Positions 29,534 through 51,311 of a stretch of DNA of 64,000 nucleotides are shown here, one piece after another (the stretch's first letter is position 1; every line of letters begins with the position of its first letter). The translations under genes and the position numbers were made by a program. This stretch comes from Pelagibius sp. Alg239-R121 (GTDB lineage: Bacteria > Pseudomonadota > Alphaproteobacteria > Kiloniellales > Kiloniellaceae). The notes under the pieces were generated by a model. The model made no database searches. It worked only from the letters and a program-made list of their open reading frames with translations, and was not told the DNA's origin. The stretch is from positions 310,001 through 374,000 of the forward strand of contig NZ_CAMZOF010000001.1 in assembly GCF_947331435.1 (NCBI RefSeq). Reading direction: 5' to 3'.

Positions 29534-29784
29534 CGTCCGGTTGCACTTTTGGCGGCAATGCTCAGCCGCTTTACTAACTGCTGTGACGTTAGGTTTCTGC
29601 TCAAGGCAATGGGCGCGTAAGCAGCTCATCCTGCAGGCGCTGAAATCGGGAAACGCTTCGTCGACCAGTTAGGTTTTCGTTAGCTATTTTTCCCTTGCCT
29701 TGATCCGGGCAGGCACATATCTTCCCGCCGTTCGCGCAGACCGCACAGGCGGCGAAGCTTTGATTTCCAAAGCGCGACAGAGAT

Positions 29785-30314
<530 letters not shown>

Positions 30315-31180
30315 TGTCCGTCATCATATAGTTTGAGACAGAAGGCGTTTTGACTTTGAGGAGTCATCGCTCATCTGGGTTTAGTTAAGCAGCGGCCTTA
30401 GCGTGCTGCAAGCGCCTCGACTTCATAGTTTTCCTTTTTATCTTCTCGCGTTCAAGCAAGATTGTGTGGCCTCGGCCTGTGTAAACGTCGGCGGGTGTGA
30501 CGTTGTTCAGGCTCTCGTGGTATCGCTGGTGGTTGTAATGCCCAACGAAGGCAGCGATATGGGCTTCGAGATCACCAGGTAGGAAGTAGTTTTCTAGCAG
30601 GATGCAGTTCTTCATCGTCTGATGCCATCGCTCGATCTTGCCCTGTGTTTGCGGATGATAGGGCGCGCCGCGTGTGTGCGTCATGCCTTTGTCTTCTAGA
30701 TATTCAGCGAGATCTCCGGAGATGTAGCATGGGCCATTATCTGACAGCAGGCGGGGGCGATGCACCACATTTACCTGATCCAACCCAGTTGCCTCCAGAG
30801 CTTGATTTAACGTGCCCTGAACGTCTGATGCGGCCATTCCGGTGCAGAGCTTCCAAGTGATGATGTAGCGACTGTAGTCATCCAAGATCGTGCTGAGGTA
30901 GAACCAACCCCAACCGATGACCTTGAGATAAGTGAAGTCAGTCTGCCAAAATTGATTGGGTGCTGTGGTCTTATCGCGGAACTCGTTCGCCGATTTCATA
31001 ACAATGAATGCTGGGCTGGTGATCAAATCATGAGACCTCAGAAGCCTGTAAACACTGGCCTCAGAGACGAAGTAGCTGCGCTCGTCGGTGAATGTCACAG
31101 CCAGTTCCCGTGGGCTCAGTTCTGGCCGCGCCAATGCCATATCCAACATTGCCTGGCGCACCGTGTTGCGGTCTCGCACC
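30315..31180 (-). mobile_element. IS3-family insertion sequence remnant
   Basis: The segment contains the distal part of an IS3-family transposase. One plausible intact terminus is at 30315 (+ strand TGTCCGTCATCATATAG), which starts with the TG typical of IS3 ends. The other end, with the first ORF and the left terminal repeat, is missing. The break falls near 31178-31190, next to an orphan terminator hairpin. Confidence 0.75.
30385..31179 (-). pseudogene. 5'-truncated IS3-family transposase (DDE domain)
   Basis: This frame of 264 codons carries the full rve-type integrase core. The three acidic residues are in QTDFTYLK, LSDNGPCY and GKIERWHQTMKN. The N-terminal end begins at a GTG within the family block that precedes ELSPRELAVTFTDE, and the helix-turn-helix part that should precede it is missing. 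A stop codon lies a few codons upstream in the hairpin sequence, so the full enzyme cannot be made. The remainder is uninterrupted, which suggests a recent truncation. Confidence 0.88.
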
Positions 31181-33560: not shown

Positions 33561-33608
33561 GATACATATTTCGATATCTTTTCCAGATATGATATCGAGA
33601 GATGTATC
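33561..33608 (+). promoter_or_regulatory. palindromic operator upstream of hipB
   Basis: Two 18-base arms (33561-33578 and 33591-33608) form an inverted repeat with 16 of 18 positions matching, around a 12-base spacer. The arms carry GATACAT and CGATATC. A third half-site-like element (ATATCTCGATTTTTGATAT) follows at 33621-33639, close to an AT-rich putative -10 region. HipB-type proteins are known to bind such palindromes and repress their own operon; that this is the operator is inferred. Confidence 0.7.
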
Positions 33609-33685
33609 GGTGTTTGCATCATATCTCGATTTTTGATATACTTAAATATATAATTCCTATGATCGATGCAGAAAAGAATATCAAA

Positions 33686-34069
33686 ATGAGTTACGATGCA
33701 CAGGCAATCTCCAAAAGACTGCAGGACGCCCGCGCGGCAAAAGGCCTCAGCCAGCGCGAATTGAGCAAGCTGGCAGGCGTTCCGCAGGGTCAGATTTCCC
33801 GTATTGAAGCGGGCGCAGTTGATCTCCGTCTTTCCAGCCTTGCCGCCCTTGCGCATGCCCTCGATCTGGAACTGACACTCGTGCCGCGTAAAGCGTTGCC
33901 TGCTGTCCATTCACTCATTCGGCAGGCCGCAGGAACGCGCTCTCAAGCGACAAGTGCATTCGAGAAGACGAAAGCAATTCGAAACACTTTGGCTCACAGT
34001 TCAATATTCAGGCAGATAGAAGACGAACCGAAACCAGCTTATTCGCTCGATGAGGATGATGATGGCTGA
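33686..34069 (+). CDS. hipB: HipB-like antitoxin, XRE-family repressor
   Basis: This protein of 127 residues has an XRE helix-turn-helix near residues 10-60 (KGLSQRELSKLAGVPQGQISRIE). A C-terminal extension rich in polar and acidic residues ends in SLDEDDDG. It is longer than the 88-residue E. coli HipB. It overlaps the HipA start, which is the usual antitoxin-first arrangement. It is expected to repress the operon and to neutralise HipA by binding it. The ATG at 33686 is chosen because it starts the family-like sequence. Confidence 0.88.
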   Translation: MSYDAQAISKRLQDARAAKGLSQRELSKLAGVPQGQISRIEAGAVDLRLSSLAALAHALDLELTLVPRKALPAVHSLIRQAAGTRSQATSAFEKTKAIRNTLAHSSIFRQIEDEPKPAYSLDEDDDG

Positions 34070-35297
34070 TATCTCGACCCTCAATGTCTTCCTGCACGGT
34101 CAAGCAATCGGCACGCTCACCTATCTCGGAGGAGAGCGAACGCTATTCGCGTTCAATGAAGAATACATCGCCGATCCGGAACGGTCGACACTGGGCTTGC
34201 GCTTCAAGGACAGGTTTGGAGAGCTGATCACCGAATTCCGGCCCTATCGCATCAAGCTCATGCCGTTCTTCTCCAACCTTTTGCCGGAAGGACATCTTCG
34301 AAAATACCTCGCCGAGAACGCCGGTATTCATACCGACCGCGAATTTTTCCTCCTTTGGGCTTTGGGCCGCGATCTCCCCGGTGCAATTACCGTGCGTCCG
34401 GCAGAAGGAGAAGCACAGCCTCCGGCTGAACAACTCGACGCGCTGGATGAGCAGACACGATCAAGCGCGAAGGCAGAAGCCCTGCACTTCTCTCTTGCGG
34501 GCGTTCAACTGAAGTTCTCGGCTGTTACAGAGGCATCAGGCGGGCTGACAATTCCGGCAAGCGGTGTCGGCGGCAACTGGATCGTAAAGCTGCCTTCCCA
34601 GCAGTATCACGGTGTCCCTGAAAACGAATTCTCGATGATGACGCTTGCCCGCATGATTGGAATCACCGTTCCTACTATTGACCTGATCAATATCAAAAGC
34701 ATAGGCAACATGCCAGGCGGCATAGACGCCCTTGGTGAAAAGGCATTCATCATCGAACGCTTTGATCGCAGCAGCGATGCGCCCATCCATATCGAGGACT
34801 TTGCACAGGTCTTCGATGTCTATGCCGAGGACAAATACAAGCGAGCAAGTGCCCGCAACATTGCCTCAGTTATCGCCGCAGAAGCAGGTGACAGTGATAT
34901 CGCCGAGTTCATCCGGCGCCTGACCTTTAACACACTGATCGGAAACGGCGACATGCACCTCAAAAACTGGTCGCTGATCTATCCTGACAGACATCACGCC
35001 CGTCTCTCCCCGGCCTATGATTTTGTCTCGACGATTCCCTACATCGCGGACGACAAAGCCGCGCTGAACTTCAGCAGATCACGCGCATTCACGGACTACA
35101 CGAAAGACGAGCTCTTCCATCTCTCCGCCAAGGCTGCCTTGCCACGCAAGCTGGTGTTGGATACCGCCCTAGAAACAGTCGATCTCTTCATGGAGCGGTG
35201 GCAGGCAGAGAAGAAACACTTCCCGATGGGTACAGATGTTCTCCGCGCCATCGATGCGCATCTGAAGACTCTGTCAATTGTGCAGGGTGGTGAATGA
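34062..35297 (+). CDS. hipA: HipA-family serine/threonine kinase toxin
   Basis: This 411-residue protein has the HipA N-terminal (couple_hipA) part, LPEGHLRKYLAENAG, and the kinase-like core. The phosphate loop region is LAGVQLKFSA (about 145-154), the ATP-site lysine lies in GNWIVKLPS, the catalytic Asp is in GNGDMHLKN (D297) and the metal-binding Asp is in PAYDFV (D320). HipA of E. coli phosphorylates glutamyl-tRNA synthetase, causing persistence. The target here is unknown. All catalytic residues look intact, so it is probably active. Confidence 0.92.
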   Translation: MADISTLNVFLHGQAIGTLTYLGGERTLFAFNEEYIADPERSTLGLRFKDRFGELITEFRPYRIKLMPFFSNLLPEGHLRKYLAENAGIHTDREFFLLWALGRDLPGAITVRPAEGEAQPPAEQLDALDEQTRSSAKAEALHFSLAGVQLKFSAVTEASGGLTIPASGVGGNWIVKLPSQQYHGVPENEFSMMTLARMIGITVPTIDLINIKSIGNMPGGIDALGEKAFIIERFDRSSDAPIHIEDFAQVFDVYAEDKYKRASARNIASVIAAEAGDSDIAEFIRRLTFNTLIGNGDMHLKNWSLIYPDRHHARLSPAYDFVSTIPYIADDKAALNFSRSRAFTDYTKDELFHLSAKAALPRKLVLDTALETVDLFMERWQAEKKHFPMGTDVLRAIDAHLKTLSIVQGGE

Positions 35298-35540: not shown

Positions 35541-36806
35541 TTACAGTTCATCAATCAGCTTGAAGACCCGTGGGATATGATAAAGCGGCACTGCCAGCAA
35601 GAAGAGCGCGAAGATGCCGCCTAAATAAAACAGTGCCGCTCTAGTGTCCCATTCATCCAACAAGACTGGTATGAAGATAGGAAGGACGAAGAGAAATAGC
35701 GCAGCAGGCGCGATCAACAGGATTATTGCTATGAAGACCCCTGCGTATGACCATAAACCGTGAAAAGCATAGAAGCTTGGCAAATTCCCAACGACGCTCT
35801 CTCCGATTCTTACTCCAGATAAGTAGCGCAATGCTCTAGTTGTGTAGATCGCAATAGATAAAGCGCAAAATGCCAAAATCCATGGCCCTATCAGGATTGC
35901 GTCGCGTAGCTGAAGAGATATCGAGATAACAGGAATATTGATTGTGCTGGATTGCCCAGTTGCCCTCAGTAGAAGTGCGACTCGCTTTTCGTGTGCTACC
36001 TTCAAAGCCACACTTGGTTGTGCGAGCGTAAGATTTGCCCTCCGCTGTTTCTCAAGATCGGAAATTTCATTATTCGGTGACCTTATCCACTTGTTCCAAA
36101 TTCTTTCGGCCGTTGCTCTTCTATTAAGGCTGAACTCGCTGAGAACAAGGTTTTTAAGTCTTTCCAATTCGCGAGTGGCTTTGCTTAAATCTTCTTCGGT
36201 GGAAAGCGATGATTGGAGCACCGTCAAGCCTTTCAACCAAGCTTTAATTTCAAGCGTCGACATCCAATGATAGCGCAACGCATCTTCGACCCGGAGGTTC
36301 TCTATTTTATCTGCGACGAGGTATGAGCCTGGGCTATGCTCGGCGAGACGAAGCGCAGATTGCCCTTCTAGAAATGGAAACTCTGCTTCCAGACCCATTG
36401 GGTCATTTAGGAACATCAAGCCGCCAATTGTGTTGAGGGGGCTGTTAATTGCAAGGCGTTGACTGCTCGAGAGTCCAATCTCTGGATTGGTCATCGCTTT
36501 TACAGTGCGGCGAACCTCGGCAAACAACCGACTGCGATTTCTTCTGAGTTCGTCAATCGAACGCCGCTCGTTATGGTAGTCTGGTTGGAGATACATGAAG
36601 GAACGAAGTTGAAGTGCAATTTCCAGTGCATCAGACTCCATATCGGAATAGAATTTTATCAGTTCTTCATTGCTACGCTCTTCGATATTATGGGATCTGA
36701 AGTCGATGAACGATGTGACTAGGATAAGAGCAGTCAAACTCCACATCAAAATGTAAAAGTTATTGGCTCGACTAAAGCTGTCTTCAGCGGCTTCGAGATG
36801 GGTCAT
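35541..36806 (-). CDS. membrane protein of unknown family, cargo block
   Basis: This 421-residue protein has one N-terminal membrane helix (about 17-35), a hydrophilic, helix-rich middle of about 260 residues and four C-terminal hydrophobic segments (about 305-415). The middle contains predicted coiled-coil stretches (KATRELERLKNLVLSEF). I recognise no domain. It is the last gene of the minus-strand cargo block, separated by 222 AT-rich bases from the V8-like protease gene, so it may have its own promoter. A sensor or transport-like role is possible but unsupported. Confidence 0.7.
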   Translation of the reverse strand: MTHLEAAEDSFSRANNFYILMWSLTALILVTSFIDFRSHNIEERSNEELIKFYSDMESDALEIALQLRSFMYLQPDYHNERRSIDELRRNRSRLFAEVRRTVKAMTNPEIGLSSSQRLAINSPLNTIGGLMFLNDPMGLEAEFPFLEGQSALRLAEHSPGSYLVADKIENLRVEDALRYHWMSTLEIKAWLKGLTVLQSSLSTEEDLSKATRELERLKNLVLSEFSLNRRATAERIWNKWIRSPNNEISDLEKQRRANLTLAQPSVALKVAHEKRVALLLRATGQSSTINIPVISISLQLRDAILIGPWILAFCALSIAIYTTRALRYLSGVRIGESVVGNLPSFYAFHGLWSYAGVFIAIILLIAPAALFLFVLPIFIPVLLDEWDTRAALFYLGGIFALFLLAVPLYHIPRVFKLIDEL

Positions 36807-37028
36807 GTACTGTCACTCGACAATTTAGAGATTTGAGCTCTCGTGTCGCTTAGGGTTTCATTTCAGACACGAACGTTGAGCACGATGCTTTCTTCTGGCG
36901 TTTCATAAGTGTTCTGAGAATTTGGCAACTTATACGTAAAATATTGATATTTATCGCATAAATCACAAAAACGTCACGAGAATTTTTGAACTGGCACAGT
37001 CATAAGGGCGCTCTGGAGAGCTACGCAC

Positions 37029-38057
37029 TCAAGACGACCAATTGGAGATTGCATCAAAAATCTCGTTCGTTACACGGCGACCTAGGTTTGCAGTTCCTTG
37101 CGTGTAAACATGAGTAGCAACGACCCAACGTTGTCCACTTTTGTTTGAAAAAAAAATGGGTGCGCCGCTTTGCCCCGCTTCGGTATCCACCCGGTAGTAT
37201 ATGAATGCCTCGTCGTAGTCAGTTGATCGGCCTGCATCATACCACTGCGTACCGAATGCCTTAGACTCTCCAGGATACCCAGCGCTTTGGATGAGGGGCC
37301 GTGCAGATAAATCACTATCGGTGAAAACCGCATAGCCAAACCAACCGGTGGCCGACCCGATTGTCTTATCGGCCGTCTTTATCATACCGAGATCGTATTG
37401 CTCGTCTCCCCGATCAACCCAACCAGCGAGAGCATCTCTTTTCACTCCGTAGGTTTCGCCGAATGGCGCAATTCGTCCGTCGCGCCCAGGAATCACCCGG
37501 ATATTCCTCGCCCAGGACTTAGAATGTCGATCGAAAACATTGTGGCCCGCGGTGATCAGGGTGTCAGGGCCCGAGAACCAAGCGCTACCTGTCGCTCTCG
37601 AGCCGTTTTCATAGACAATTTCCAGATGGCAAATACTGCGAAAGGGAACACGCGACGTATCGTTAATTTTTACCCACGGCTGCCCCTCGAAAAAGGCATT
37701 TTCGGGCTGTAGCCACTTTCGCACTCCTTTATCGAGAAGAGTGTTGGAAGAGGTAGTGCATAGCACATCCGACAAAGATGTCTGATCGACAATTTGCGAT
37801 CCATAGCCATGACTATAGGCACGACTTAAGGGGAAATCCGAAACCCTTTCCAATATTCCGCCAAGATGCGTTTCCGTCATCCAGCTTCTTTGTATCCGCC
37901 TTTCACGCTCCTGCTCCAATGGCTCACGCTTTTGCGAAGAATGATCCGGCCCTGCGTGGACGGGTACTTTAAGTTCTCCCTGCGTAACATCAGTTCCGAT
38001 CGCATAGGGGTTTTCGTCATCTGTGATTTCAAGATGCACTTTTGAATCGTCAGCCAT
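37029..38057 (-). CDS. V8/trypsin-like serine protease, no signal peptide
   Basis: The C-terminal two thirds form an S1B (glutamyl endopeptidase-like) chymotrypsin fold. The catalytic triad is visible as H172 (ITAGHNVFD), D222 (EQYDLGMIK) and S297 (EAGQSGAPIF). The first 130 residues are charged and not recognised; there is no signal peptide or membrane helix. The start follows the lipoprotein stop by two bases with AGGAAGG before it, so the two genes are co-translated. Such proteases can act in the cytoplasm of bacterial conflict systems or, if exported another way, outside. The substrate is unknown. Confidence 0.88.
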   Translation of the reverse strand: MADDSKVHLEITDDENPYAIGTDVTQGELKVPVHAGPDHSSQKREPLEQERERRIQRSWMTETHLGGILERVSDFPLSRAYSHGYGSQIVDQTSLSDVLCTTSSNTLLDKGVRKWLQPENAFFEGQPWVKINDTSRVPFRSICHLEIVYENGSRATGSAWFSGPDTLITAGHNVFDRHSKSWARNIRVIPGRDGRIAPFGETYGVKRDALAGWVDRGDEQYDLGMIKTADKTIGSATGWFGYAVFTDSDLSARPLIQSAGYPGESKAFGTQWYDAGRSTDYDEAFIYYRVDTEAGQSGAPIFFSNKSGQRWVVATHVYTQGTANLGRRVTNEIFDAISNWSS

Positions 38058-38059
38058 AA

Positions 38060-39271
38060 CTACCTTCCTGTTCCAGACGAACCGGTTGTCGAAGCTCCAC
38101 TGGGTGCGCCACCATTCTCTGGTGCTTCGGCCTCTGGCTGAACTGTCTCGCTTCCAAATTGCAACCCTGCGTTCCCCACCGAGAGGTTAAACAGCATGGA
38201 TCCTGGCTTATAGTTTTCCTGCTTTAACTTTGCCTCCCTTGCTTCCTTCTTCTTTGCGTCAAGGTTGATTTTTTTGTCGATCAGGGTTGAGCGCGCATCA
38301 AAAAGCTCTCCTTGCTTTGTTATGCCTTGTATGAATGAACCGACGAGCTCGAAGGGAAGAGCTGCAAGGCGTTCGGCTTCACTACCGTCTGTAACGTACT
38401 TGTAGTCGACGAGCATCCCATTGTGCAGGCTTACGTCGCTTGACCACTTGGTAAAGACGCCACGCTTAACCGCAGCGGCGTAAGTCGGGCTGCCGTTAGG
38501 CAGGTACACATTGGTTTGTTGGATTGTGTCGTCGAAAAATCGTGCCGTGACGGTGTAGGAAACAGGCAAGCGGTAACAAAAGCCGACACTGCATTTACTG
38601 CTATCATCGATAGGGTCTAGCGCCTTATCGGCACCAAACGACCGTACGACGGAAAGCGCCACAACAGAACCTTGCTGTCCTAACAAACTTTCGGCTTCTA
38701 AGAGGAAAGGTTTTTCCGCCAATTCCTCCCGATCAATCGACCCAAAAGCTCCTAGGATTGCCTGATTGATTTCACTATTGAGGATGTCAATCTCGCTGAC
38801 CAAATCTTCGGAAACGGAAGGTTTGGTCAAGGCCTCGAGATCGACCTCTCGACTGAGCACTAACTTGCCATCGGCGGGCTGGCTTTGCGCGACCAGAGCG
38901 CCCACTGATTTAAGGGCGTTCTGAGCAGCTTCATCCAGGCGCCCGTCTGATTCGTAGTTGAGTGTGTTCAAGAGCCCAGTTCTACTAACCTTCGCATCGA
39001 AAGTCTCAGCGTGAAAGGGACTGTAAATTGACTTCAATCGATACCGGTGTTGTTCGTCGGCGATGTAGACAGGCTCAGACGCAGAAATTGATATACCATC
39101 GCCATTAGTATCGACCGATACGAAGAGTGGAAGTTTTGTCGTCGGCAGGAAGTAAACCGGACCGAGGTTGTTATCGTCTTTGTCACCAACCGCGACCGAA
39201 CTGACACCTGTACAAGACTGAAGACTTAATGTTGTAAAGCTCAAGGCGATGAGCGAGAGCTTGATATTCAT
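38060..39271 (-). CDS. predicted lipoprotein of unknown family
   Basis: The N-terminus is a lipoprotein signal (about 20 residues, lipobox LQSC). The mature protein of about 385 residues has mixed strands and helices and a charged coiled segment near 320-350 (KKINLDAKKKEAREAKL). It ends in Gly/Ser-rich low complexity. No domain is recognised. It overlaps the small membrane protein gene by four bases (ATGA) and is coupled to the V8-like protease gene, suggesting the three products act together at the envelope. Confidence 0.8.
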   Translation of the reverse strand: MNIKLSLIALSFTTLSLQSCTGVSSVAVGDKDDNNLGPVYFLPTTKLPLFVSVDTNGDGISISASEPVYIADEQHRYRLKSIYSPFHAETFDAKVSRTGLLNTLNYESDGRLDEAAQNALKSVGALVAQSQPADGKLVLSREVDLEALTKPSVSEDLVSEIDILNSEINQAILGAFGSIDREELAEKPFLLEAESLLGQQGSVVALSVVRSFGADKALDPIDDSSKCSVGFCYRLPVSYTVTARFFDDTIQQTNVYLPNGSPTYAAAVKRGVFTKWSSDVSLHNGMLVDYKYVTDGSEAERLAALPFELVGSFIQGITKQGELFDARSTLIDKKINLDAKKKEAREAKLKQENYKPGSMLFNLSVGNAGLQFGSETVQPEAEAPENGGAPSGASTTGSSGTGR

Positions 39272-39516
39272 GATGCCTGCCTCCCCAATGGGGTATTCGG
39301 CTTGCTGAGTTCGACAACTTGCTCTTTCTTGCCAGGAGGGATGAGATAGCCCACGGCGAAAACAACGATTGTTGTGATTGCAGCCGAAACCCCAGCAGGA
39401 ATTTTTATTGGATCACTTTCGACCTCCACAAACCAGATCAGGACTTGCACGATAGCCGCACCAAGGGCCGCTGCTGTGACCTTCTGTCCAGGAGAGTTAG
39501 AATTCATACGGAACAT
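39268..39516 (-). CDS. small two-helix membrane protein, holin-like
   Basis: The 82-residue product has two hydrophobic helices (about 12-30 and 42-61) separated by a short loop with Pro and acidic residues, and a basic, polar C-terminus (PPGKKEQ). This layout resembles small phage-type holins, but length and helix count alone do not prove that. A good ribosome-binding site (GGAGG) lies before the start. It is the first gene of the coupled trio with the lipoprotein and protease. Confidence 0.65.
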   Translation of the reverse strand: MFRMNSNSPGQKVTAAALGAAIVQVLIWFVEVESDPIKIPAGVSAAITTIVVFAVGYLIPPGKKEQVVELSKPNTPLGRQAS

Positions 39517-39599
39517 TTTTTTCCTCCCTTAACTTGAAGTTCGAAATTATCGAACTTCAGGATTTTAAAGTTTGACGCGAATTGAACTGTCGTTGCTCA

Positions 39600-41135
39600 C
39601 TACCCAATGGGATTGACGTCATCGACGAACTTGATGAGGTCGGCCATTGTGAAGTTACCGGCGTCGCTTCCCGGAAGTTCAGGACGCCAGTTTGAGCGTT
39701 GCCAGAGAAACGACCCGTGATCTCCATGCACCAAACCAAGGAAGGTCTCTGCGATAATTGTCGAACCCACAGGTCCAAGCCGTTGACCCCCGTGAAGGAC
39801 CTCGGCTTCTTTGAGAATGTAGTACCAAAGAGGCGTATTCGCCTGCAGCCCATGCTCCTGAACGACGGCGCCATCCGGTCCGCTGATTAGGTCTCCTGCA
39901 GAGAGCAGGTCGGCTCCAATGAACGCTGCAATTGCCTGGCCGGAAGGTAGTCTGAGTTGAACGCCGCGCTTTAGGTTTCTAAAGGCAAGGACACCCTGCA
40001 AACCGGATTCTCCCGGTAAACTGTGCAGATCAGAAGCAAGTTTCGGATCGATCAATCGCGAAGCGTTGACTGGCGTGCCGTCCAATCCAAGATCATAAAA
40101 CCGACGCCAATCAATGATCCAATTCCCAGGGAGCGAAGCGAGTTTCCCGCCAGGAATGCCCGGTGTTGGGTCAACGCTGGGATCATTAACTAGATCACCT
40201 ACGATCGCACCGGACTTGCCAGTGAACCCGAAGAGGAGACGAAGAGTGGCTGGCGTTAAGCCGCCTTCACGGAAGACCCTGTTGAAGTCGTAAACCTGCC
40301 TAACCATTGAATGGCCTAGGCGATAGGCCGCGGCAGAAAATTCGACGGGCATGAAGGGAGTGGTCTTGAAGCGGTAGAAACGGCGGCCTTCATGTTTGAT
40401 CTTTCGGATCAATCCCGGTTCTGTCAATCGCTCGACAAAATCGAACAGCACAATCCACTGATAGTGCCAGGCAACGATTCGACGAGCTTCTGTATACTGG
40501 TCTGCACCGGTGAGATCCGGGCGGTTTGACGAAAGAAAATCGATCACCGCGTTATGAAACTTCAAAAAAGCGAGATGCGTTTGAGCAACGACGAGGTTCT
40601 CGTCATTGCGTTCATCTCCGATGAGGGGGCGACCGACGCGGTTTCGCGGTAGGTCATTTGGCAGTGGGTTTGGGATGTCCTGCTCTTCGCTTGGCAGAGT
40701 CACACCCAAAAGGAACTTGTTACTTGGACCATATGGCGTCCTTGACTTTCGAGCGTAAAGCTCAGGACGAACGCCGGGACCATCGCCGTACAATGAGTCG
40801 AGATCCAATGCAGGAGTCCGAAAGTTTTCGGTTATTGTCGGATCGGTCGCCTGATCGGATATTGGCGTCGTATCCAGCGTAAGATCGTGATCAACAAATT
40901 GTCCTAAATAGGTGAAGCCTGCGGGGATAGTGCCGTTGTCTCCCGAAGGCGCTGTTCCAGGCTGGTCAAGCATTGACGCAGCGAGGTCAGCGAGCTTTGC
41001 GTCCGACACCTGGAGAGCAGGGAGATTGGGAAACATTCGCCCGAACTTCCCTGGGTCGCTGTTGGTCGAGAAAGCGTCGAGAGTAGAGATATCCAAATCT
41101 CGGGTGCTGCTACCATGGTTGTTTGAATAGGACAT
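39600..41135 (-). CDS. animal-type haem peroxidase (peroxinectin-like)
   Basis: This 511-residue protein belongs to the animal haem peroxidase superfamily. The distal histidine is in GQFVDHDLT (H83), the catalytic arginine is in GDERNDEN (R176) and the proximal haem-ligating histidine is in YRLGHSMVRQ (H275). The full core is present. The ATG at 41135 follows AGGTGGCAC. No signal peptide is seen, which is unusual for a peroxidase acting outside the cell. It could oxidise halides or organic substrates with H2O2. It lies between a terminator on one side and the small membrane protein on the other, so it may be transcribed from its own promoter. Confidence 0.9.
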   Translation of the reverse strand: MSYSNNHGSSTRDLDISTLDAFSTNSDPGKFGRMFPNLPALQVSDAKLADLAASMLDQPGTAPSGDNGTIPAGFTYLGQFVDHDLTLDTTPISDQATDPTITENFRTPALDLDSLYGDGPGVRPELYARKSRTPYGPSNKFLLGVTLPSEEQDIPNPLPNDLPRNRVGRPLIGDERNDENLVVAQTHLAFLKFHNAVIDFLSSNRPDLTGADQYTEARRIVAWHYQWIVLFDFVERLTEPGLIRKIKHEGRRFYRFKTTPFMPVEFSAAAYRLGHSMVRQVYDFNRVFREGGLTPATLRLLFGFTGKSGAIVGDLVNDPSVDPTPGIPGGKLASLPGNWIIDWRRFYDLGLDGTPVNASRLIDPKLASDLHSLPGESGLQGVLAFRNLKRGVQLRLPSGQAIAAFIGADLLSAGDLISGPDGAVVQEHGLQANTPLWYYILKEAEVLHGGQRLGPVGSTIIAETFLGLVHGDHGSFLWQRSNWRPELPGSDAGNFTMADLIKFVDDVNPIG

Positions 41136-41569
41136 GTGCCACCTCCATTTTTTCACTGTGTTTGAAGAACACTGTTGGTCCTGTCGAAAAATCCGAAATC
41201 AACAGCGACTAAGTTGACTGGCTCTCAGCAGTTCTTGAGAGACGACAGTAATTGTGCTCGGATCGGAGGTGCGATCTGCTTTTGGTCGTGCGGTCCGGAC
41301 ACTTCGAGCAAACCAACGTTCAGTGCGAACGTTTAAGGCCTTCGTCTATCAAAGCACCGTAGAATTAAACATTGGAAACTCGGTTTCGCGTGAGTTAGTA
41401 AAGAGTTATTAATTCGTTATTTTGGTTAAAAATATAAAAGAAAGCCTCGCTACAATATGTAGCGAGGCTTATTGCATTCGTTGACGCTCAAATAGATAGA
41501 TCAAGTCTTATATCTACAGAGATTTCTAAGAGCTTTAGCGCGGAGGTTAATTGAAACGGAATGCCAGCC
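41136..41569. other. 434-base non-coding gap between peroxidase and subtilase genes
   Basis: It contains a strong terminator for the subtilase side and AT-rich sequence on its left, probably the peroxidase promoter. No frame with coding character is seen. Confidence 0.5.
41442..41470 (-). terminator. terminator after the subtilase-like gene
   Basis: A perfect 12-bp stem (AAGCCTCGCTAC with GTAGCGAGGCTT) encloses a 5-base loop. On the - strand it is followed by TCTTTTATATTTTT. It ends the upstream regulator-PAP2-subtilase unit and isolates the peroxidase gene. Confidence 0.85.
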
Positions 41570-43489
41570 CTAAGTTCGATTCCATCTAGCATCCGCAAAA
41601 ATCACCAGCCCATCGCCTCCGCGTTCCTTGTTGGGTGCCGGAGCTCCCTGTGCATGGGCAATCAATTGCGCTTTTGCGTTCGCGAAAGTAGATTGGCCAT
41701 CAGACATTAAATCCGCCAGAAAGCGTGTGACCTGAGGCGCGGCAACACTCGTTCCATTGATTGGAAGACTTGATCCTGAAAACGTCCCGGAAGCTAACAC
41801 ACCGGGTTGGGATCGCGAGCGATCGGATACTGCTGAAACGTCTGGCTTGAAAGGGACATGTAGAAGATTTTGTTTTTCATCTCCGCGTCCCGAATAGCGT
41901 GCTATCGTCACTGAATTCTTCGTATAACCCGCGACAACGATAGTTCGTGAATTCGTGGAGAGGCCGCTTTGTGTGCCGCAACGCTTGACGACACTGTTAT
42001 CTTGGTCTTCCAATTCCAACCGCCCTTGCTCGTCAAATCTCTTGTAGTTCGGGTCGTCAAAATAGGACTGACGGCCATTGGTGCGATATCGATAGGGAGC
42101 TTCGTCGCGCTGTACCCAAGCATCGATCTGTTCGCCTGGCCGTAAGAATGTCTCGACAATCACCTTCCAAAGGCCGGCGGGTGCTCGTTGACGGGTACTA
42201 TCGAAAATCTCTGTAGGCGCTACGGCAATGAGTATCCGTTGTCGATCGGAATTGGGATTGTCCAGAGTAACTCTGGCAATCACATCGCCGTTTGGACCAT
42301 CACGCAAGAGCTGTGCCTCCCCGGCCAGGGCTAGAGTTGTCGAAACGCCCCCAGGTGGTGAAATTTCCACTGTCGGTGTCGTGTCCGCCGGTATCCAGAT
42401 CTCTAGATAGCTCGAGGTTTGATCGCAGGGTTGAATCCGCCAAGGCAACGACAGAAGCTGGCGCGCATCTCTTCCAATTTCACTACAAGCGTGTTGGCGA
42501 TTTAGATGGCGGTTTCCCGCAGGCAGAACAACTTGCATCATTACGCCTTTGCCCGCTGTTTGATCGTTGGCAAGCTCCTTCTCTAAGATTTGTTCAACCT
42601 GCCCTTTGCTGTTATGCGGCCCTCCACTGATCGCGTAACTGAAGTTGATGACAACTGGCAGGCGGTCGAGTTTCAAAGCAATTCTCATCTTTTCCGCTTG
42701 CTTTCGGATAAATTTGACCGCGGCGGTGACGAAGGGCACATAAGTGGCCCCCGAAGTTTCCTGTGTCATTAAAAATGGTAACTGGACTGTAATCATGCGC
42801 CGAAGATGTGATTTATCGAAGCCCTTTTCATCTGGTCCGTAACCAGCAGCAAGATCCGCCATATGGGTTCCGTGTGACGCTCGTCTTACCAGAGCAGACT
42901 CGTCAAATGCCTTGTCTTTGACCAAGCCGAGCTGTGAAAGAACTACTGCTTCATCGGCACATGCAGCGCGTTTTTGATCAATTTCAGTCGAGGTGATGAC
43001 CTTACCGTAGGGAACGTCGCCAGCACTATCGGCGTCTTGCACCCAGGCGTAATCGACACGAGATCGACCAAGGGCATCGACGAAACGATCATTGGCGATG
43101 TTGATCCCATCGTCGATCACCGCAACAATCACGATTTCCTTTTTCTCTTCCTCTGTCAGTCCCTGTAGAGCTGGCGGCACTTCGTAAACGGCCTTTGAAT
43201 CCTCAGTTCCATTTCTATTGAAACTCCTTTCTCGAAGCGGCATCGGGAAACGCACATCTTCACGAGCGCGGGCTGGCGGTGCAGACGGCCCGCGTGCGGG
43301 CGACGCACTCACTGGATTACCCGGAGCGAGCTTTAGATCGATCGTTCTGGCAAAGTCTTCTGAATGATCGTTTGGTCGTTTAGCTCTCTTACGGACCGTA
43401 AAATCCTCCCCAAGTCCAAGAAGCCAATCGCAGTAAGGATCACCGCATTCGGGTGTGGTGGAGTCTGGAACCCAAGTTAATGTTGCCAT
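41570..43489 (-). CDS. subtilisin-like (S8) serine protease
   Basis: A 639-residue S8 family peptidase. Catalytic residues are visible: Asp in VIDDGIN (D126), His in SHGTHMADLAAG (H206) and Ser in NGTSVAAPQ (S581). A long insert of about 200 residues lies between the oxyanion region and the serine. There is no signal peptide; the N-terminus is charged and starts with a Cys/Asp-rich stretch (CGDPYCDW). The ribosome-binding site is GGAGGA. It follows the PAP2-fold gene by 19 bases and ends with a terminator. The protein could be intracellular or exported by an unknown route. Confidence 0.92.
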   Translation of the reverse strand: MATLTWVPDSTTPECGDPYCDWLLGLGEDFTVRKRAKRPNDHSEDFARTIDLKLAPGNPVSASPARGPSAPPARAREDVRFPMPLRERSFNRNGTEDSKAVYEVPPALQGLTEEEKKEIVIVAVIDDGINIANDRFVDALGRSRVDYAWVQDADSAGDVPYGKVITSTEIDQKRAACADEAVVLSQLGLVKDKAFDESALVRRASHGTHMADLAAGYGPDEKGFDKSHLRRMITVQLPFLMTQETSGATYVPFVTAAVKFIRKQAEKMRIALKLDRLPVVINFSYAISGGPHNSKGQVEQILEKELANDQTAGKGVMMQVVLPAGNRHLNRQHACSEIGRDARQLLSLPWRIQPCDQTSSYLEIWIPADTTPTVEISPPGGVSTTLALAGEAQLLRDGPNGDVIARVTLDNPNSDRQRILIAVAPTEIFDSTRQRAPAGLWKVIVETFLRPGEQIDAWVQRDEAPYRYRTNGRQSYFDDPNYKRFDEQGRLELEDQDNSVVKRCGTQSGLSTNSRTIVVAGYTKNSVTIARYSGRGDEKQNLLHVPFKPDVSAVSDRSRSQPGVLASGTFSGSSLPINGTSVAAPQVTRFLADLMSDGQSTFANAKAQLIAHAQGAPAPNKERGGDGLVIFADARWNRT

Positions 43490-43508
43490 TTTCTTATCCT
43501 CCGAGAAC

Positions 43509-44687
43509 TCATGCCCACTCTTCGAGCGCTAAATCCCACAGACCCTTCAGTGGCAAACAGACGTCTTGATCTCCAACACTTAGTTCATTCGATCCGACCT
43601 TAACGACATTTTTGACTGGGTTATTATTTTCTTTGGAATAGTCGACTAGTTGTGCAGAAACACGCTTCAATTCGCTGTCGAAGTTAAGCAACTTTTGGTA
43701 ATCGAAATCCTGTTCACCAATTCCGGCTGCATTAAAAGTAGCTGATTTCAGATTTTTACTTGACCCGGTGGCCCTGTCAGCAAGGTAGTGTCCTAATACT
43801 ACTCCCATCATTGCGCCTGCAATACTGTCGATCGGGAAGTGAACACCTGCGACCGTTCGATTGACCGCGATACGCGCGGCTTGGCGCAAGAGCATGTCTT
43901 CGACGCCCGAATTGACAGTGGAACTAACGAGACGAGAGAGCATTGTTGCGACAGCGAAGGCCTCGGTCGCATGGCCACTTGGCAATGCCCCGTGACCCGG
44001 AGTCTGGATCATTGGTTGAACCTGTGACGAGAAGCGGTCGGGGCGCACACATGCTAAGGAGTGCTTCGCACGCTTTGCCGCCATCGTCGCAAAGAACTGC
44101 GCAACTGTAATCAACTCCAATGTGTATTTATTTTTTTCCGGATAGATGCCAAGAACATTTGCGAAGAACGGGGTGGGATAACCCAGTTGCGAAACAATTT
44201 CCGCCGCACGATCCACGCGGAGATCGATGTAGTTGCGCACAACTTTCATTTGTTCCGCGAAGTCGGTCATCGAAGGACGAATGAGTTTAAGCATCTCCTG
44301 TCTTTGTAGGGTAGCCGTTGCACCTAAATCACCGCTTTCAGCCACGTGATACATGACAATGCCAGGCAGCTGATTATTATCGATATCTAATTTCGAGTCG
44401 GAAATCTGCTCAAAAGCCACTCGGGACAGCAAGTCAGCTTCAATCGTAACTGCCCGCACCTGTGGGTCCCAAGCCTTGATGTTGGCTGAGGCATTTCCCC
44501 TCATTGGTGAAGGAGTTGCCACTTCAAAGCGACCAGCGATGGCGTCTCGGGCTGTTATCAGGGCGCCGGTGACAGCCATACTGCCGCCGCTCTCACCACC
44601 GCTTGCACCACTAGCGCCGCTTGCGCCGCTTGCGCCGCTGGCTCCACTTGCACCGCTCGCTCCACTTGCAATACTTGCAATAGACAT
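43509..44687 (-). CDS. PAP2/vanadium haloperoxidase-fold enzyme with Gly-Ala-Ser head
   Basis: This 392-residue protein carries the three PAP2/vanadium-haloperoxidase motifs: K208 with R215-P216 (KHSLACVRP), PSGH (236-239) and R277...H283...D287 (NRTVAGVHFPID). These bind phosphate or vanadate, so it could be an acid phosphatase or a haloperoxidase. It lacks the many membrane helices of lipid PAP2 enzymes and is likely soluble. The first 31 residues are a Gly-Ala-Ser tandem tract. The gene follows the regulator by 18 bases. Confidence 0.88.
   Translation of the reverse strand: MSIASIASGASGASGASGASGASGASGASGGESGGSMAVTGALITARDAIAGRFEVATPSPMRGNASANIKAWDPQVRAVTIEADLLSRVAFEQISDSKLDIDNNQLPGIVMYHVAESGDLGATATLQRQEMLKLIRPSMTDFAEQMKVVRNYIDLRVDRAAEIVSQLGYPTPFFANVLGIYPEKNKYTLELITVAQFFATMAAKRAKHSLACVRPDRFSSQVQPMIQTPGHGALPSGHATEAFAVATMLSRLVSSTVNSGVEDMLLRQAARIAVNRTVAGVHFPIDSIAGAMMGVVLGHYLADRATGSSKNLKSATFNAAGIGEQDFDYQKLLNFDSELKRVSAQLVDYSKENNNPVKNVVKVGSNELSVGDQDVCLPLKGLWDLALEEWA
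44595..44669 (-). repeat. Gly-Ala-Ser-coding tandem repeat in the PAP2-fold gene
   Basis: The 5' end of the gene repeats a Gly-Ala-Ser codon triplet about eight times. Copies differ mostly at third codon positions. Such repeats can expand or contract by slippage and so vary the length of the N-terminal tail between strains. Confidence 0.8.
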
Positions 44688-44705
44688 TGTTTATCTCCCC
44701 AAGAT

Positions 44706-46364
44706 TTAGTTTGTTGGCACACCAGATTTACGAAGGGCCTCCGCCCATTCACGCCCTGTGGCGAAAAGGGCGGCTGGATGATCCTTCAGATAACCCTCAA
44801 CAGTCAGTGAAGGCTGGAGCCGAACCAGTTCAACGGCTGAAGTGAGAGCTTCTTCTGTTCGGCCCAGTGACTGAAGCGCGATTGTCCGTACACGCAGTGT
44901 TGAGATGTGTCGCCTGTTGGCCTTGAATGACCGGTTCGCCAATTCGAGCGCGCCGGTGAAATCGCGCAAGGAAAGCCGGGCAGTGGCCGCAAGGCTATCG
45001 TATAGGTATTTGTATGGATCGACCGGCGAAAGCCTTTGTGCCCGATCGGTACAAGAGACAGCTTCGGAACCTTGGTCGACAAAAGCATGCATCGTCCCTT
45101 TGAGCAGCCATGCGAGCGCATTGTTGGGATCAAGCTCGATGGCTTCGTCAAAGCGTGCAGCTGCGACATCGAAGCGCTTTACCAGATTGTTCTGAACAAA
45201 TCCGTCGACCGCCAATGAAAAGGCGCATTCCGGATCGATGTCGAGGGCACGCCGACCACTGTCCGCAGCAGTTGCTGCGTCTCGGGCGAAATCCACACTC
45301 CAGCCTTGACCAACACTCAGCACGTACCACATCGCGAGCCAGGCATGTAACGCTGCGCAGCGTGGAGCGCGTGAAATGAGTTCCTCAAGTCTGGGCCTAG
45401 CTTGGGAAAAGCTACCGAGTGCCTGCCGGTGCATGAGAGCAATTGCGGAGACAAGAAGATAATGGCTCTCTACGTCATACAGTTGCCGGGCATTCGTGGT
45501 TTCGATCGATGCCGACACCACTTCTCTGCCGATAGCACGTGCCAGTAAGTAGGCAACTTCATCGTTGCCGTCGACGAACTTAGAGACCTGCCCGGTCAGA
45601 TCTTGAGACCAGCGTAGGGTTCCGCTTTCCACGTCCGTAAAGTCAACGCTCAGATGGTAAGCATCGTTTCGTACTCTGACTCGCCCAGAGAGCACATAGT
45701 CGACCCCGATACTCTGCTGAAGGTCACCCAATGTGATGACTGTCGTATCGACGTTCCGACAGGAAAGATGGGAAATGACATTCATGAGCGTTGAGCGCGA
45801 TAGAGCGCGAGTAGCTTCCTCAGAAAGCATATCCCCAATCAGAGATTCGTAATCGCTTCCTGGCTTGCTCTGTAGTGGCAATACGGCGATTGTCGGACGG
45901 ATATCAGTTATCTGGCGCGATGGTTGCACCAACTCAGCGATGGCTAGAACTGGGTTGGAGTGGCGATAGTTATTGAGCCATGTTTCGAATGCCGGTGTCG
46001 CCACACTGAGGCCTTCGAGGAATGTGCCGTCAGACTTATGTCCGACCAATTCCCACGTATCGGGCACTAACTGTATGTCGTCGTTAGTTGTCTTTAGCAG
46101 CGTTTCAAATCGGTCATCGAAGAGCTTCTTTAACTCGCTAAGCGCCCCTCTTAAGCTCAGCCTCTGATGCTCCGCACCAGATCTCCACAACATATCGCCA
46201 AGATGAGCTCGTGTTCGACGCCCATCCGGCGCTGTCGCAAGTAATGCCAACAACGCGCGCTTCTTGTTACCAGCAATTCTGACTTCTGTGCCGTCAGACC
46301 ATTTTGCAGAAAACGGGCCGTACAAACGTATCTGCAATTTTGGGACACCGATAATCTTTGGCAT
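44706..46364 (-). CDS. SARP-like winged-helix / TolB-like / TPR regulator
   Basis: This 552-residue protein starts with a winged-helix domain of the SARP/OmpR type (about 8-95; LYGPFSAKWSDG, GNKKRALLALLA, LSLRGALSELKKLF). A TolB-like segment follows (TIAVLPLQSK and GVDYVLSGRVRVRND), and then at least four TPR-like repeats to the end (AAARFDEAIELDPNNALAW). Such proteins occur as stand-alone transcription regulators in proteobacteria. It is the first gene of the cargo block and probably controls it. The ATG at 46364 follows GGGGGAAG; an in-frame ATG 15 bases earlier is less well spaced. Confidence 0.85.
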   Translation of the reverse strand: MPKIIGVPKLQIRLYGPFSAKWSDGTEVRIAGNKKRALLALLATAPDGRRTRAHLGDMLWRSGAEHQRLSLRGALSELKKLFDDRFETLLKTTNDDIQLVPDTWELVGHKSDGTFLEGLSVATPAFETWLNNYRHSNPVLAIAELVQPSRQITDIRPTIAVLPLQSKPGSDYESLIGDMLSEEATRALSRSTLMNVISHLSCRNVDTTVITLGDLQQSIGVDYVLSGRVRVRNDAYHLSVDFTDVESGTLRWSQDLTGQVSKFVDGNDEVAYLLARAIGREVVSASIETTNARQLYDVESHYLLVSAIALMHRQALGSFSQARPRLEELISRAPRCAALHAWLAMWYVLSVGQGWSVDFARDAATAADSGRRALDIDPECAFSLAVDGFVQNNLVKRFDVAAARFDEAIELDPNNALAWLLKGTMHAFVDQGSEAVSCTDRAQRLSPVDPYKYLYDSLAATARLSLRDFTGALELANRSFKANRRHISTLRVRTIALQSLGRTEEALTSAVELVRLQPSLTVEGYLKDHPAALFATGREWAEALRKSGVPTN

Positions 46365-46373
46365 TACTGCTTC

Positions 46374-46387
46374 CCCCAATATTGGGG
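46374..46387. promoter_or_regulatory. 14-bp perfect palindrome over the regulator's ribosome-binding site
   Basis: CCCCAATATTGGGG lies 10 bases before the regulator start codon and overlaps its Shine-Dalgarno. A bound dimer would block transcription or translation. It may be the regulator's own operator; no second copy was seen before the other cargo genes. Confidence 0.5.
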
Positions 46388-49016: not shown

Positions 49017-49226
49017 GGTTCCATCTCCATATGTGGGAATTCACTATGCTTTAGCTGGTGTTCCCAGTCCTGCAAAACCTCGAAGAGTTGGTTCGATTCC
49101 TCTACTTCAAGGCCCACCAAATTTCCACAAAATTTGTCCCCACCTCGGTTGGCTATTTGCTATCGAGGCCTCGCCGATATCCCCCAAATCTGATCGCTGC
49201 GCAGTGCTGCATAGAATTCCATGCGT
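49017..49226. other. intergenic region: putative oriT side and right island boundary
   Basis: The sequence GGTTCGATTCC at 49090-49100 and CCCACCAAA near 49113-49121 resemble a tRNA T-arm and CCA end, but a full cloverleaf cannot be drawn. A pair of AAATTT boxes follows (49119-49135). This may be the other attachment end or the oriT, or both; neither is proven. Confidence 0.4.
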
Positions 49227-49607
49227 TCAGCCTTCGAATTTCTCGACTTCCTCTACCAAGATTGGTGCAGCGAGGCTGAGTGAATGAATACCCATGATCG
49301 TGGTCAGCTGGATCGTCTCCAGAATCTCCTCTTTCGTCGCACCCGCTCTTAGCGCGTTCTGAATGTGCCGCCGGACACCGGGGCCATGCAAATGGGTCGT
49401 TGCGGCATTGATCGCGATGAAGATCAATTCCTTATACTTCTGCTCAAGTGGCCCCTGACGCTGAGGGACAGAACGGAACGCCAAAAAAGCCTCCAGAAAG
49501 TCGGGATCCAGTTCTCGAAACTGATCCCAAGCCGGGTTCCAGTCGCCGGTCGCCTTTTGGGCGTCCATATGCGGATATTTCTTTTGATCGTCGGACATTG
49601 GACTCAT
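49227..49607 (-). CDS. carboxymuconolactone decarboxylase-like protein
   Basis: This 126-residue protein of the carboxymuconolactone decarboxylase/AhpD fold shows the helical motif LIFIAINAATTHLHGPG and RHIQNALRAGATKEEI. It lacks the CxxC pair found in AhpD peroxidases, so a redox role is unlikely. The ATG at 49607 overlaps the stop of the ThDP enzyme gene (ATGA). It is the last gene of the catabolic operon. Confidence 0.85.
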   Translation of the reverse strand: MSPMSDDQKKYPHMDAQKATGDWNPAWDQFRELDPDFLEAFLAFRSVPQRQGPLEQKYKELIFIAINAATTHLHGPGVRRHIQNALRAGATKEEILETIQLTTIMGIHSLSLAAPILVEEVEKFEG

Positions 49608-51292
49608 CCCCCCCGGTGTTTGAAACTGTCGCGGCGGAAGCTGTAGAGCGCCGCCGGGTCGACCGCGACATCGACAACTGCCGGTTTGCCGCAAACCAGC
49701 GCCGCTTCGATGGCTTCACGCATCTCATCAAGTGTTTGAGCCCGGAACCCGGCAGCTCCATAGAGCTCTGCAACCTTATCGAATCGTGGGCTACTTATGT
49801 CGGCACCGATATAGCGTCCGCCAAAGAAATCACGCTGATAGGCTTTCTCTGCCCCCCAGCATTTATTGTTCATCACCACCGTGACCGTATTGATTTTGTG
49901 ATCGACGGCGGTGCTGAGTTCCGACAGGGTCATCCCAAAGCCACCGTCTCCCATCAGACTAACCACGGGACGTTCGGGCTGCGCGAGTTTCACGCCCAAA
50001 CCGCAGGCAAAAGAGAAGCCGACCAACCCGAAGTCGAGCGGCGTGAAGAGGCTTTTTGGATGCCAATAGTTCAAGGCATCCGTCGCCTGAAGACACAGTG
50101 TGCCCGCGTCCATGGTCACAGCTGTATCCTTGGGCAAAACCTCGCGCAGCGCCTTGAATAGACCAGACGGCTGGATCGGCAGAACATCCGTGGCGGCATC
50201 CTCATCCCGCGTCGCAAGATAAGCAACGCGTTCAGACTTGTAGGCTCCGGTCCAGGCTTCAACTTCAGCTCTTTTGTTCATGGATGTGATGGCTGCGCGC
50301 AGCTGAACCGCTGCAGTTGGCGCATCCGCCCAGATACCGACTTCGATGGGAAAATACCGGCCAATGGCGGTCGGCTCGAGTTCCACATGAATGATCGCGG
50401 CATCCTCGTTGATGTTGTCGTAGCTGTAGAAGGTTGCATTGAATCCGATCCGCGTGCCGAGCGCGAGGATGACATCGGCCTCCCGCACAAGTCGCGACGC
50501 GACAGGGTTGCCGCGCGGTCCCATCTGGCCCGCGTTCAGGGGATGGTCGAAGGGGACTGCGTCACCGTGACCGGGAGAGGTAACCACCGGTGCATTCAGA
50601 GTCTCGGCCAACTCCATCGCCTGGACATGACCGCCGGTGTTCTTAATCCCACCGCCGGCGATGATGACGGGGCGCTCAGCGTTGCGCAGCAATTCCGCCG
50701 CTTGAGCGATGGCGTCTGCTGCGCCTGCGGGCACGGATTGGGAACGGTAAGCTCTGGGCTTCTGAAATGCGGGAAATTCAGCAGTCGCGGACAGTACGTC
50801 GCGCGGCAGGTTTAGCTGGACAGGGCCCTTACGCGGCGTCATCGCGACTCGAAAGGCTTCGCGGAACATTTCCGGTACCCGGTCGGCACCCGTGGCCGTC
50901 CAGGTCTTTTTCGTGATCGGACTGAAGAGCGCCTGCTGATCGACCTCCTGAAAGGCATCGCGATAGACATGCGACGAGGAGAGAGCGCCGGCGATGGAGA
51001 CGATCGGCGTAAAGGCCGCAGCGGCCTGCCCCAGACCCGTCACGAGATTTGTCGCGCCCGGGCCATTTTGCCCTGCAAGAATGACCCCAGCATTACCGCT
51101 GGCACGTGCATAACCATCGGCCATATGGGTACCGGTGCGCTCGTCATGGACCCCGACAAAGTTGATTTCGGATGCGTCGTAGAGCGCATCGAACATTTCC
51201 ATGGTGGCCGAGCCGATGAGTCCAAATACCTGTTCGACCTTCTCCGCCTTCAGGGATTCGACAGCGGCCTGACCGCCCGTAAGCTTTTTCAT
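49604..51292 (-). CDS. thiamine diphosphate-dependent enzyme (acetolactate synthase-like)
   Basis: This 562-residue ThDP enzyme of the acetohydroxyacid synthase superfamily has three domains. The activating Glu is in VHDERTGTHMADGYAR and the ThDP-binding motif is GDGGFGMTLSELSTAV, about 27 residues from NN. In a catabolic operon it may be a decarboxylase or carboligase for a keto acid, rather than the biosynthetic IlvB; no small regulatory subunit gene is nearby. The ATG at 51292 is chosen because the upstream frame is not family-like. Confidence 0.88.
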   Translation of the reverse strand: MKKLTGGQAAVESLKAEKVEQVFGLIGSATMEMFDALYDASEINFVGVHDERTGTHMADGYARASGNAGVILAGQNGPGATNLVTGLGQAAAAFTPIVSIAGALSSSHVYRDAFQEVDQQALFSPITKKTWTATGADRVPEMFREAFRVAMTPRKGPVQLNLPRDVLSATAEFPAFQKPRAYRSQSVPAGAADAIAQAAELLRNAERPVIIAGGGIKNTGGHVQAMELAETLNAPVVTSPGHGDAVPFDHPLNAGQMGPRGNPVASRLVREADVILALGTRIGFNATFYSYDNINEDAAIIHVELEPTAIGRYFPIEVGIWADAPTAAVQLRAAITSMNKRAEVEAWTGAYKSERVAYLATRDEDAATDVLPIQPSGLFKALREVLPKDTAVTMDAGTLCLQATDALNYWHPKSLFTPLDFGLVGFSFACGLGVKLAQPERPVVSLMGDGGFGMTLSELSTAVDHKINTVTVVMNNKCWGAEKAYQRDFFGGRYIGADISSPRFDKVAELYGAAGFRAQTLDEMREAIEAALVCGKPAVVDVAVDPAALYSFRRDSFKHRGG

Positions 51293-51311
51293 CTCGGGTT
51301 CCTTTACGTCT

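Follow-up and report, generated by a model that had tools for sequence, protein, structure and literature searches.

A three-gene cassette encoding a regulator, a PAP2-fold enzyme with an N-terminal tripeptide array, and a subtilase, on a genomic island

Eight genes lie side by side at positions 35541–46387 of the 64,000-nucleotide stretch of DNA analyzed here (hereafter, the window), and they raise the question of whether they form an undescribed system or a chance collection. An earlier note on this DNA had read them as a single set on one strand, in which four enzymes keep their catalytic residues. All eight are indeed on the minus strand, and motif inspection of the peroxidase, the V8-like protease, the S8 protease, and the PAP2 enzyme bears out the intact residues. 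The genes themselves are real, yet conservation as a unit extends to only three of them.

A genomic island carrying two transcription units

The genes encode, in order, a regulator (REG), a PAP2/vanadium-haloperoxidase-fold enzyme (PAP2), a subtilisin-type protease (S8), a heme peroxidase (PEROX), a holin-like protein, a lipoprotein (LIPO), a V8-type protease (V8), and a membrane protein (MEM), and are separated by 18, 19, 434, 83, −4, 2, and 222 bases. Within the 434-base gap 3′ of S8 sits a strong intrinsic terminator (41470–41442; 13-bp stem, 3-nt loop, T-rich tail) on the same strand, which closes a REG-PAP2-S8 operon (46364–41570). We therefore read the block as two transcription units rather than one, the first being REG-PAP2-S8 and the second PEROX-holin-like-LIPO-V8; the attachment of MEM is less sure.

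The mobile setting suggested for the block was confirmed by comparison with three congeneric genomes, all of which lack an insertion of approximately 27 kb (29863–56935) lying directly 3′ of a tRNA-Ala gene (29785–29860). Synteny with these genomes holds to the left of the tRNA gene and ends at 29863, whereas the DNA that follows the tRNA in genome G003 reappears in the window genome from 56935; we conclude, therefore, that about 27 kb were inserted 3′ of the tRNA. The three relatives contain nothing truly equivalent to the interval 49100–52100. Besides the eight-gene block, the island cargo comprises a recombinase remnant, an insertion sequence with an rve domain, a ParB-like gene, a HipBA-like pair, and a relaxase with a small gene. 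A search for an att direct repeat returned no exact repeat of at least 12 bp between 29700–29900 and the right side. The rve-domain transposase (30385–31179) adjoins a truncated C-terminal part resembling a site-specific recombinase (29811–30296) that overlaps the tRNA-Ala end, and the island's integration enzyme may have been inactivated. The HipB/HipA-like toxin-antitoxin pair (33602–35297), on the opposite strand to the block, adjoins the ParB-like gene.

Conservation of the core and of its neighbors

A scan of one genome per species across roughly 85,000 species yielded at least 528 PAP2 relatives, of which the best 80 were examined. REG, PAP2, and S8 are ordered on one strand in 74 of these 80 loci (one with a split S8), REG is divergent in three, and a contig end cuts the remaining three. 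Wherever the contig is long enough, S8 and REG adjoin PAP2 in 80 of the 80 best relatives, each gap being a contig end. For REG-PAP2-S8, this linkage refutes the possibility, raised in the earlier note, that such genes are never neighbors elsewhere, and an undescribed system therefore does exist; what stands of the system proposed there is the three-gene core, whereas the eight-gene membership is not conserved. The core is an undescribed three-gene cassette, present in at least a hundred genomes, and its conservation marks it as a self-contained, horizontally moving device. In a tblastn search of plasmids, relatives of PAP2 and S8 were adjacent to each other in Phaeobacter, Rhizobium, Bosea, Terrarubrum, Roseibium, Caballeronia, Paraburkholderia, Microvirga, Paracoccus, and others, with a regulator-like gene upstream of or facing the pair where annotation was read.

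Hosts of the best 80 loci are almost all Proteobacteria, mostly Alphaproteobacteria and some Betaproteobacteria; single records labeled Planctomycetota, Chloroflexota, and Bacillota may be metagenome-assembly or label errors. Among more distant PAP2 relatives, five loci (L061–L065) keep REG-PAP2 and have a Peptidase_A4 (glutamic peptidase) instead of the subtilase as the third gene, and in three (L066, L067, L069) regulator and PAP2 are present and no recognized protease was found. Recurrent additional neighbors of the core mostly reflect species-level synteny. Eight loci (L046, at 7783–8016, L047, L048, L112, L117, L122, L128, and L147) share a conserved divergent ORF of about 66 amino acids roughly 130 bp upstream of the regulator, possibly a small regulator. 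On Paracoccus zhejiangensis plasmid pPZ01 (L045, 1886–13525), a caspase-family gene and tssH lie less than 8 kb from a PAP2-S8 pair whose S8 is on the opposite strand.

The second unit of the window opens with PEROX (39600–41135), a leaderless animal-type heme peroxidase and optional neighbor of the core that most likely starts at ATG 41135, matches Pfam An_peroxidase (PF03098; 4e-21, 75.5 bits against a cutoff of 25), and has intact GQFVDHD, GDERND, and YRLGHS motifs. The next product (39268–39516), previously described as a two-helix membrane protein, is an 82-residue protein with two transmembrane segments that matches a holin family (phrog_9284, 1.8e-8) and may form pores. LIPO (38060–39271) carries an LQSC lipobox and has a 4-base overlap with the stop of the holin-like gene, and V8 (37029–38057), a leaderless V8/trypsin-2-type serine protease, begins 2 bases after LIPO; its TAGHNV, YDLG, and GQSGAP motifs are intact, and its Pfam Trypsin_2 match (5e-5) falls just under the cutoff. 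No leader or transmembrane segment was found in PEROX or V8. The membership of MEM (35541–36806; 421 residues), across its 222-bp gap, is uncertain, and no relatives of it were found on plasmids or in family libraries.

These downstream genes rarely accompany the core elsewhere. Within the best 80 loci, one clear heme peroxidase lies near the core (L088, 2.4 kb away), while L084 and L092 carry, directly after S8, 330-residue ORFs with weak peroxidase similarity and no Pfam match; outside that set, Palleronia plasmid pTHAF1_a (L011) has the order REG-PAP2-S8-peroxidase-C1 peptidase. We found no relative of V8, the lipoprotein, the holin-like protein, or MEM next to any of the other cores, and a same-strand, two-transmembrane holin-like ORF within 500 bp after S8 occurs in none of the 86 core loci with room for one, which leaves a holin as a general cassette part unsupported. 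The peroxidase was rejected as a marker of the system, since, of the ten neighborhoods read among its 38 plasmid relatives, only that in Palleronia contains the core, and the other peroxidases read stand without it. Among 385 genomes, PAP2 and peroxidase co-occur in 7 against 1.2 expected (p 5e-5, uncorrected for kinship and genome size).

LIPO has three weak relatives, and in two of them (L263, 8203–10449, and L264, 8305–10745, minus strand) a V8 relative follows directly, a recurring two-gene unit that occurs there without the core. A peroxidase followed by a papain-type (C1) peptidase is found in L011 (8875–12632; Palleronia pTHAF1_a) and L187 (8316–12177; genome G310). On Rhizobium sophoriradicis pCC511_1 (L010, 8809–18385), a peroxidase relative clusters with a Dyp-type peroxidase, a C25 cysteine peptidase, a ferritin-like protein, a TPR protein, and a radical SAM enzyme. 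Solo peroxidases adjoin adenylate cyclase-TPR proteins in L006 (4535–8353, by annotation) and L189 (5159–6820, by Pfam), and TPR matches resembling those at L189 occur near solo peroxidases in L180, L191, and L193; all four had looked like the core regulator, but Pfam identifies the one at L189 as the adenylate cyclase-TPR protein. V8 relatives stand beside caspase-family and phospholipase D proteins in Mesorhizobium (L265, 1478–7969) and beside radical SAM and M23 peptidase genes in Tropicibacter (L266, 4807–8498). A viral origin was also rejected, as viral contigs gave only weak generic PAP2 matches and no lipoprotein.

The core proteins and the tripeptide array

REG (44706–46364) is a soluble one-component regulator combining a winged helix (BTAD/OmpR-like), a TolB-like part, and TPRs, and most likely starts at ATG 46364 behind an SD-like GGGGGAAG. 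Pfam returns TPR and a weak Trans_reg_C match, HilA/EilA is matched weakly (1.4e-7), and no transmembrane segment was found; the TPR half is conserved.

S8 (41570–43489) is a subtilisin-type protease (Pfam Peptidase_S8, 2e-14) whose fold is CspB-like and includes a beta-rich insert; it lacks a signal peptide, and no leader or transmembrane segment was found. The triad D126/H206/S581 is invariant in an alignment of 27 sequences. The top 11 PDB matches of the predicted model (pLDDT 83.6) are CspB, CspA, and CspC, with E values from 1e-24 to 1e-18 (best, CspB 4i0w, 1e-24), and the next family follows at 2e-6. Searching the locus with PADLOC returned only weak generic subtilase matches (IetS, 4e-6 over 95 residues), with the required partner genes absent, so that the defense role earlier suggested for the block is unsupported; a defense function, if there is one, would be novel.

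PAP2 (43509–44687) is a soluble enzyme without a signal peptide (Pfam match, 2e-12), in which no hydrophobic leader or transmembrane segment was found, its N-terminus being a tripeptide array. The catalytic motifs in the window protein are KHSLACVRP, HGALPSGH, and NRTVAGVHFPID, and relatives share this type of active site (KxxxxxxRP in 99/99, PSGH in 97/99, RxxxxxHxxxD in 99/99). Seven residues ahead of the PSGH histidine stands an extra histidine (HxxxPSGH in 97 of 99 relatives; HGALPSGH in the window), which we take to be the equivalent of the second histidine of bromoperoxidases; acid phosphatase 7f17 has glycine at this position. The nearest structures to the AlphaFold model (pLDDT 85.5) are those of class A acid phosphatases (Z 16–18; best match 2akc, Z 18.0 over 196 residues), followed by vanadium haloperoxidases (Z 11–14). 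Fold and residues make PAP2 a candidate phosphatase or haloperoxidase.

Alignment of PAP2 proteins revealed a feature absent from the earlier note: nearly every protein opens with a perfect tandem tripeptide, the unit of which differs almost from species to species. The window array (44597–44669) has eight copies of ASG/SGA; units elsewhere include GGA, GGV, TAM, NGD, SGF, NSF, TGW, RAQ, NAE, DAR, and others. Across 103 proteins, the period is three residues in 99, two in one, four in two, and six in one, with 49 units up to rotation and a median of 8 copies (maximum 16). A comparable repeat occurs in just 2 of the 1653 other predicted genes of these loci. In each of three genomes searched (G000, L095, L114) the array is present once, in PAP2 alone, and we accordingly rejected a tag common to several proteins of one genome.

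The unit has changed at least 65 times on a tree of 99 PAP2 proteins that was built without the array columns. Switches occur within genera, between species of Kiloniella (SGV, TGL, AGT), Tateyamaria, and Roseibium; near neighbors of Yoonia carry SGF, SGL, GGL, and GGF, and Phaeobacter strains keep NSF constant while copy number ranges from 5 to 7. Perfect units number 882 of 910, and a few of the 28 imperfect ones are artifacts of the chosen frame at array ends. The codons behave differently: among 2445 adjacent codon pairs, 1694 are synonymous but not identical and 124 encode different amino acids, neighboring units share a codon less often than in a within-array shuffle (0.276 vs 0.351, z −9.1), and every second unit shares codons more often than shuffled (z +4.2 at lag 2). 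Because the peptide is uniform while its codons are scrambled, it is the peptide, not the DNA, that is kept uniform. These statistics reject slippage as the sole cause of the array and fit growth in two-unit (18-bp) steps, loss of unstable identical neighbors, and strong selection that keeps the peptide uniform. A single NGS/SGS interruption, resembling a turn, occurs in some arrays (GAF and TAM groups). In AlphaFold the array is disordered (pLDDT <50, residues 1–36), in a single-chain model of a kind that cannot show homopolymer assembly.

Proposed mechanism, rival readings, and known systems

From the linkage, the array statistics, the folds, and the absent leaders, we tentatively infer a regulator-controlled latent-enzyme device, in which the array would cluster PAP2, the protease would release or activate it, and the output would be hydrolytic or oxidative; the proposal thus presumes self-association, cleavage, activity, and a benefit. 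The soluble regulator probably senses a ligand through its conserved TPR half and would thereby turn the operon on. PAP2 and S8 lack signal peptides and therefore presumably act, or are stored, inside the cell. The array could form a self-binding strand with three residues per turn (of polyglycine-II, polyproline-II, or cross-beta type); if all units are alike, chains can pack whatever their register, and this would account for a peptide that is uniform and replaceable as a whole. CspB activates pro-SleC by cleavage in Clostridium spores, and by analogy the CspB-like subtilase (or the A4 peptidase elsewhere) may switch the enzyme on by acting on the PAP2 assembly or on a precursor close by, with PAP2 itself a candidate substrate of S8. 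Released PAP2 would dephosphorylate a target or, with vanadate, peroxidize it, and in this island the optional effectors (heme peroxidase, holin-like protein, and LIPO-V8) could let the leaderless enzymes exit the cell. Against the latent-enzyme device, AlphaFold gives the array no structure, and the charged units RAQ, DAR, NAE, and NGK are harder to reconcile with a self-packing strand than GGX. Moreover, L066, L067, and L069 have no recognized protease, and protease activation is therefore not universal. Slightly more doubtful is the further step of seeing the lineage-private homopolymer as a self-recognition polymer, selected at the peptide level, that stores the enzyme until the regulator-controlled protease frees it.

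We consider it unlikely that the array instead presents the partner protease with a series of cleavage sites or a decoy, with unit switches tracking specificity as array and S8 or A4 peptidase co-evolve. The third gene is usually a protease, the class of which is swappable, many identical sites in a uniform repeat would suit a protease, and as each of the three searched genomes contains a single array, no second tag carrier is needed. Yet changes of unit among relatives bring in widely dissimilar residues (F, W, D, R, A, V) while S8 is conserved, and some cores have no recognized protease. A released weapon or self-destruction device, in which leaderless PAP2, S8, peroxidase, and V8 would accumulate intracellularly and be freed by the holin-like protein against neighbors, phage-infected cells, or surfaces, accords with the lack of leaders on all four enzymes, the holin-like gene between peroxidase and lipoprotein, the co-occurrence of peroxidase and PAP2 described above, and the island and plasmid locations. 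It is nevertheless improbable as well, given the absence of such a holin-like ORF after S8 in all 86 core loci with room for it, peroxidases that elsewhere mostly stand alone, and the lack of a defense family match.

We give similarly low weight to an ordinary phosphatase or haloperoxidase operon, of envelope or secondary metabolism, whose array would serve as a flexible, passive spacer, its regularity maintained by slippage. The top structural match belongs to the class A acid phosphatases (Z 18), units rich in glycine and serine look like linkers, copy number is not fixed within a species, and the signal at lag 2 (z +4.2) is that of two-unit (18-bp) slippage; however, slippage gives uniform DNA, while here neighbors avoid equal codons (z −9.1) in a perfect peptide, and a passive spacer would tolerate mixed residues. 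That the eight genes are simply a chance collection on the island is highly improbable: conservation does not extend to the downstream stretch (peroxidase, holin-like, LIPO-V8, MEM) as a whole, but retention of the core in 80/80 loci already refutes chance for that part, the LIPO-V8 pair recurs twice, and the core-peroxidase neighborhood recurs in Palleronia.

The component folds are known, whereas their combination and the behavior of the repeats belong, to our knowledge, to no described system. A literature search, which left most subscription papers outside its reach, found no paper linking these genes or describing such repeats, and none of the curated families searched describes the cassette or the arrays, so that a cassette with at least 528 PAP2 relatives has no name, family model, or paper that we could find. 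The arrays constitute a natural experiment on repeat evolution, with uniform protein, scrambled DNA, and wholesale unit switches, and make testable the long-standing question of which selective forces favor perfect low-complexity repeats. Should assembly or protease access be under the array's control, the array would represent a new way of holding a hazardous enzyme in a latent state, as well as a source of tags that self-assemble.

Each component has a known counterpart. REG shares winged helix and TPR with one-component regulators of the HilA, CadC, and SARP types, weakly matching HilA/EilA, but differs in its soluble TolB-TPR arrangement and in adjoining this PAP2 family. S8 shares the subtilase fold and beta-rich insert with the clostridial Csp germination proteases, with a weak NCBIfam match, yet occurs without spores or a SleC/cortex context, is 14–19% identical, and has PAP2 as partner. 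The anti-phage system IetAS, consisting of an S8 protease (IetS) and an AAA ATPase, likewise has a subtilase, although the cassette has no ATPase partner and other companions. Class A non-specific acid phosphatases (PhoN, PhoC), which are periplasmic or secreted, share with PAP2 the fold over about 200 residues and the catalytic motif set, whereas PAP2 has no signal peptide, an N-terminal tripeptide array, an extra invariant histidine, and an operon with a regulator and a protease. Vanadium bromo- and chloroperoxidases belong to the same fold family (Z ~13), and the algal bromoperoxidases also have HxxxPSGH; PAP2 has 392 residues, compared with 410–670 for solved vanadium haloperoxidases. Finally, the arrays resemble glycine-rich GGX proteins (spider silk, polyglycine-II folds) in their tripeptide periodicity and small residues at two positions, but are distinguished by being uniform, by sitting on an enzyme, by wholesale unit switches between sister species, and by many units that are not GGX.
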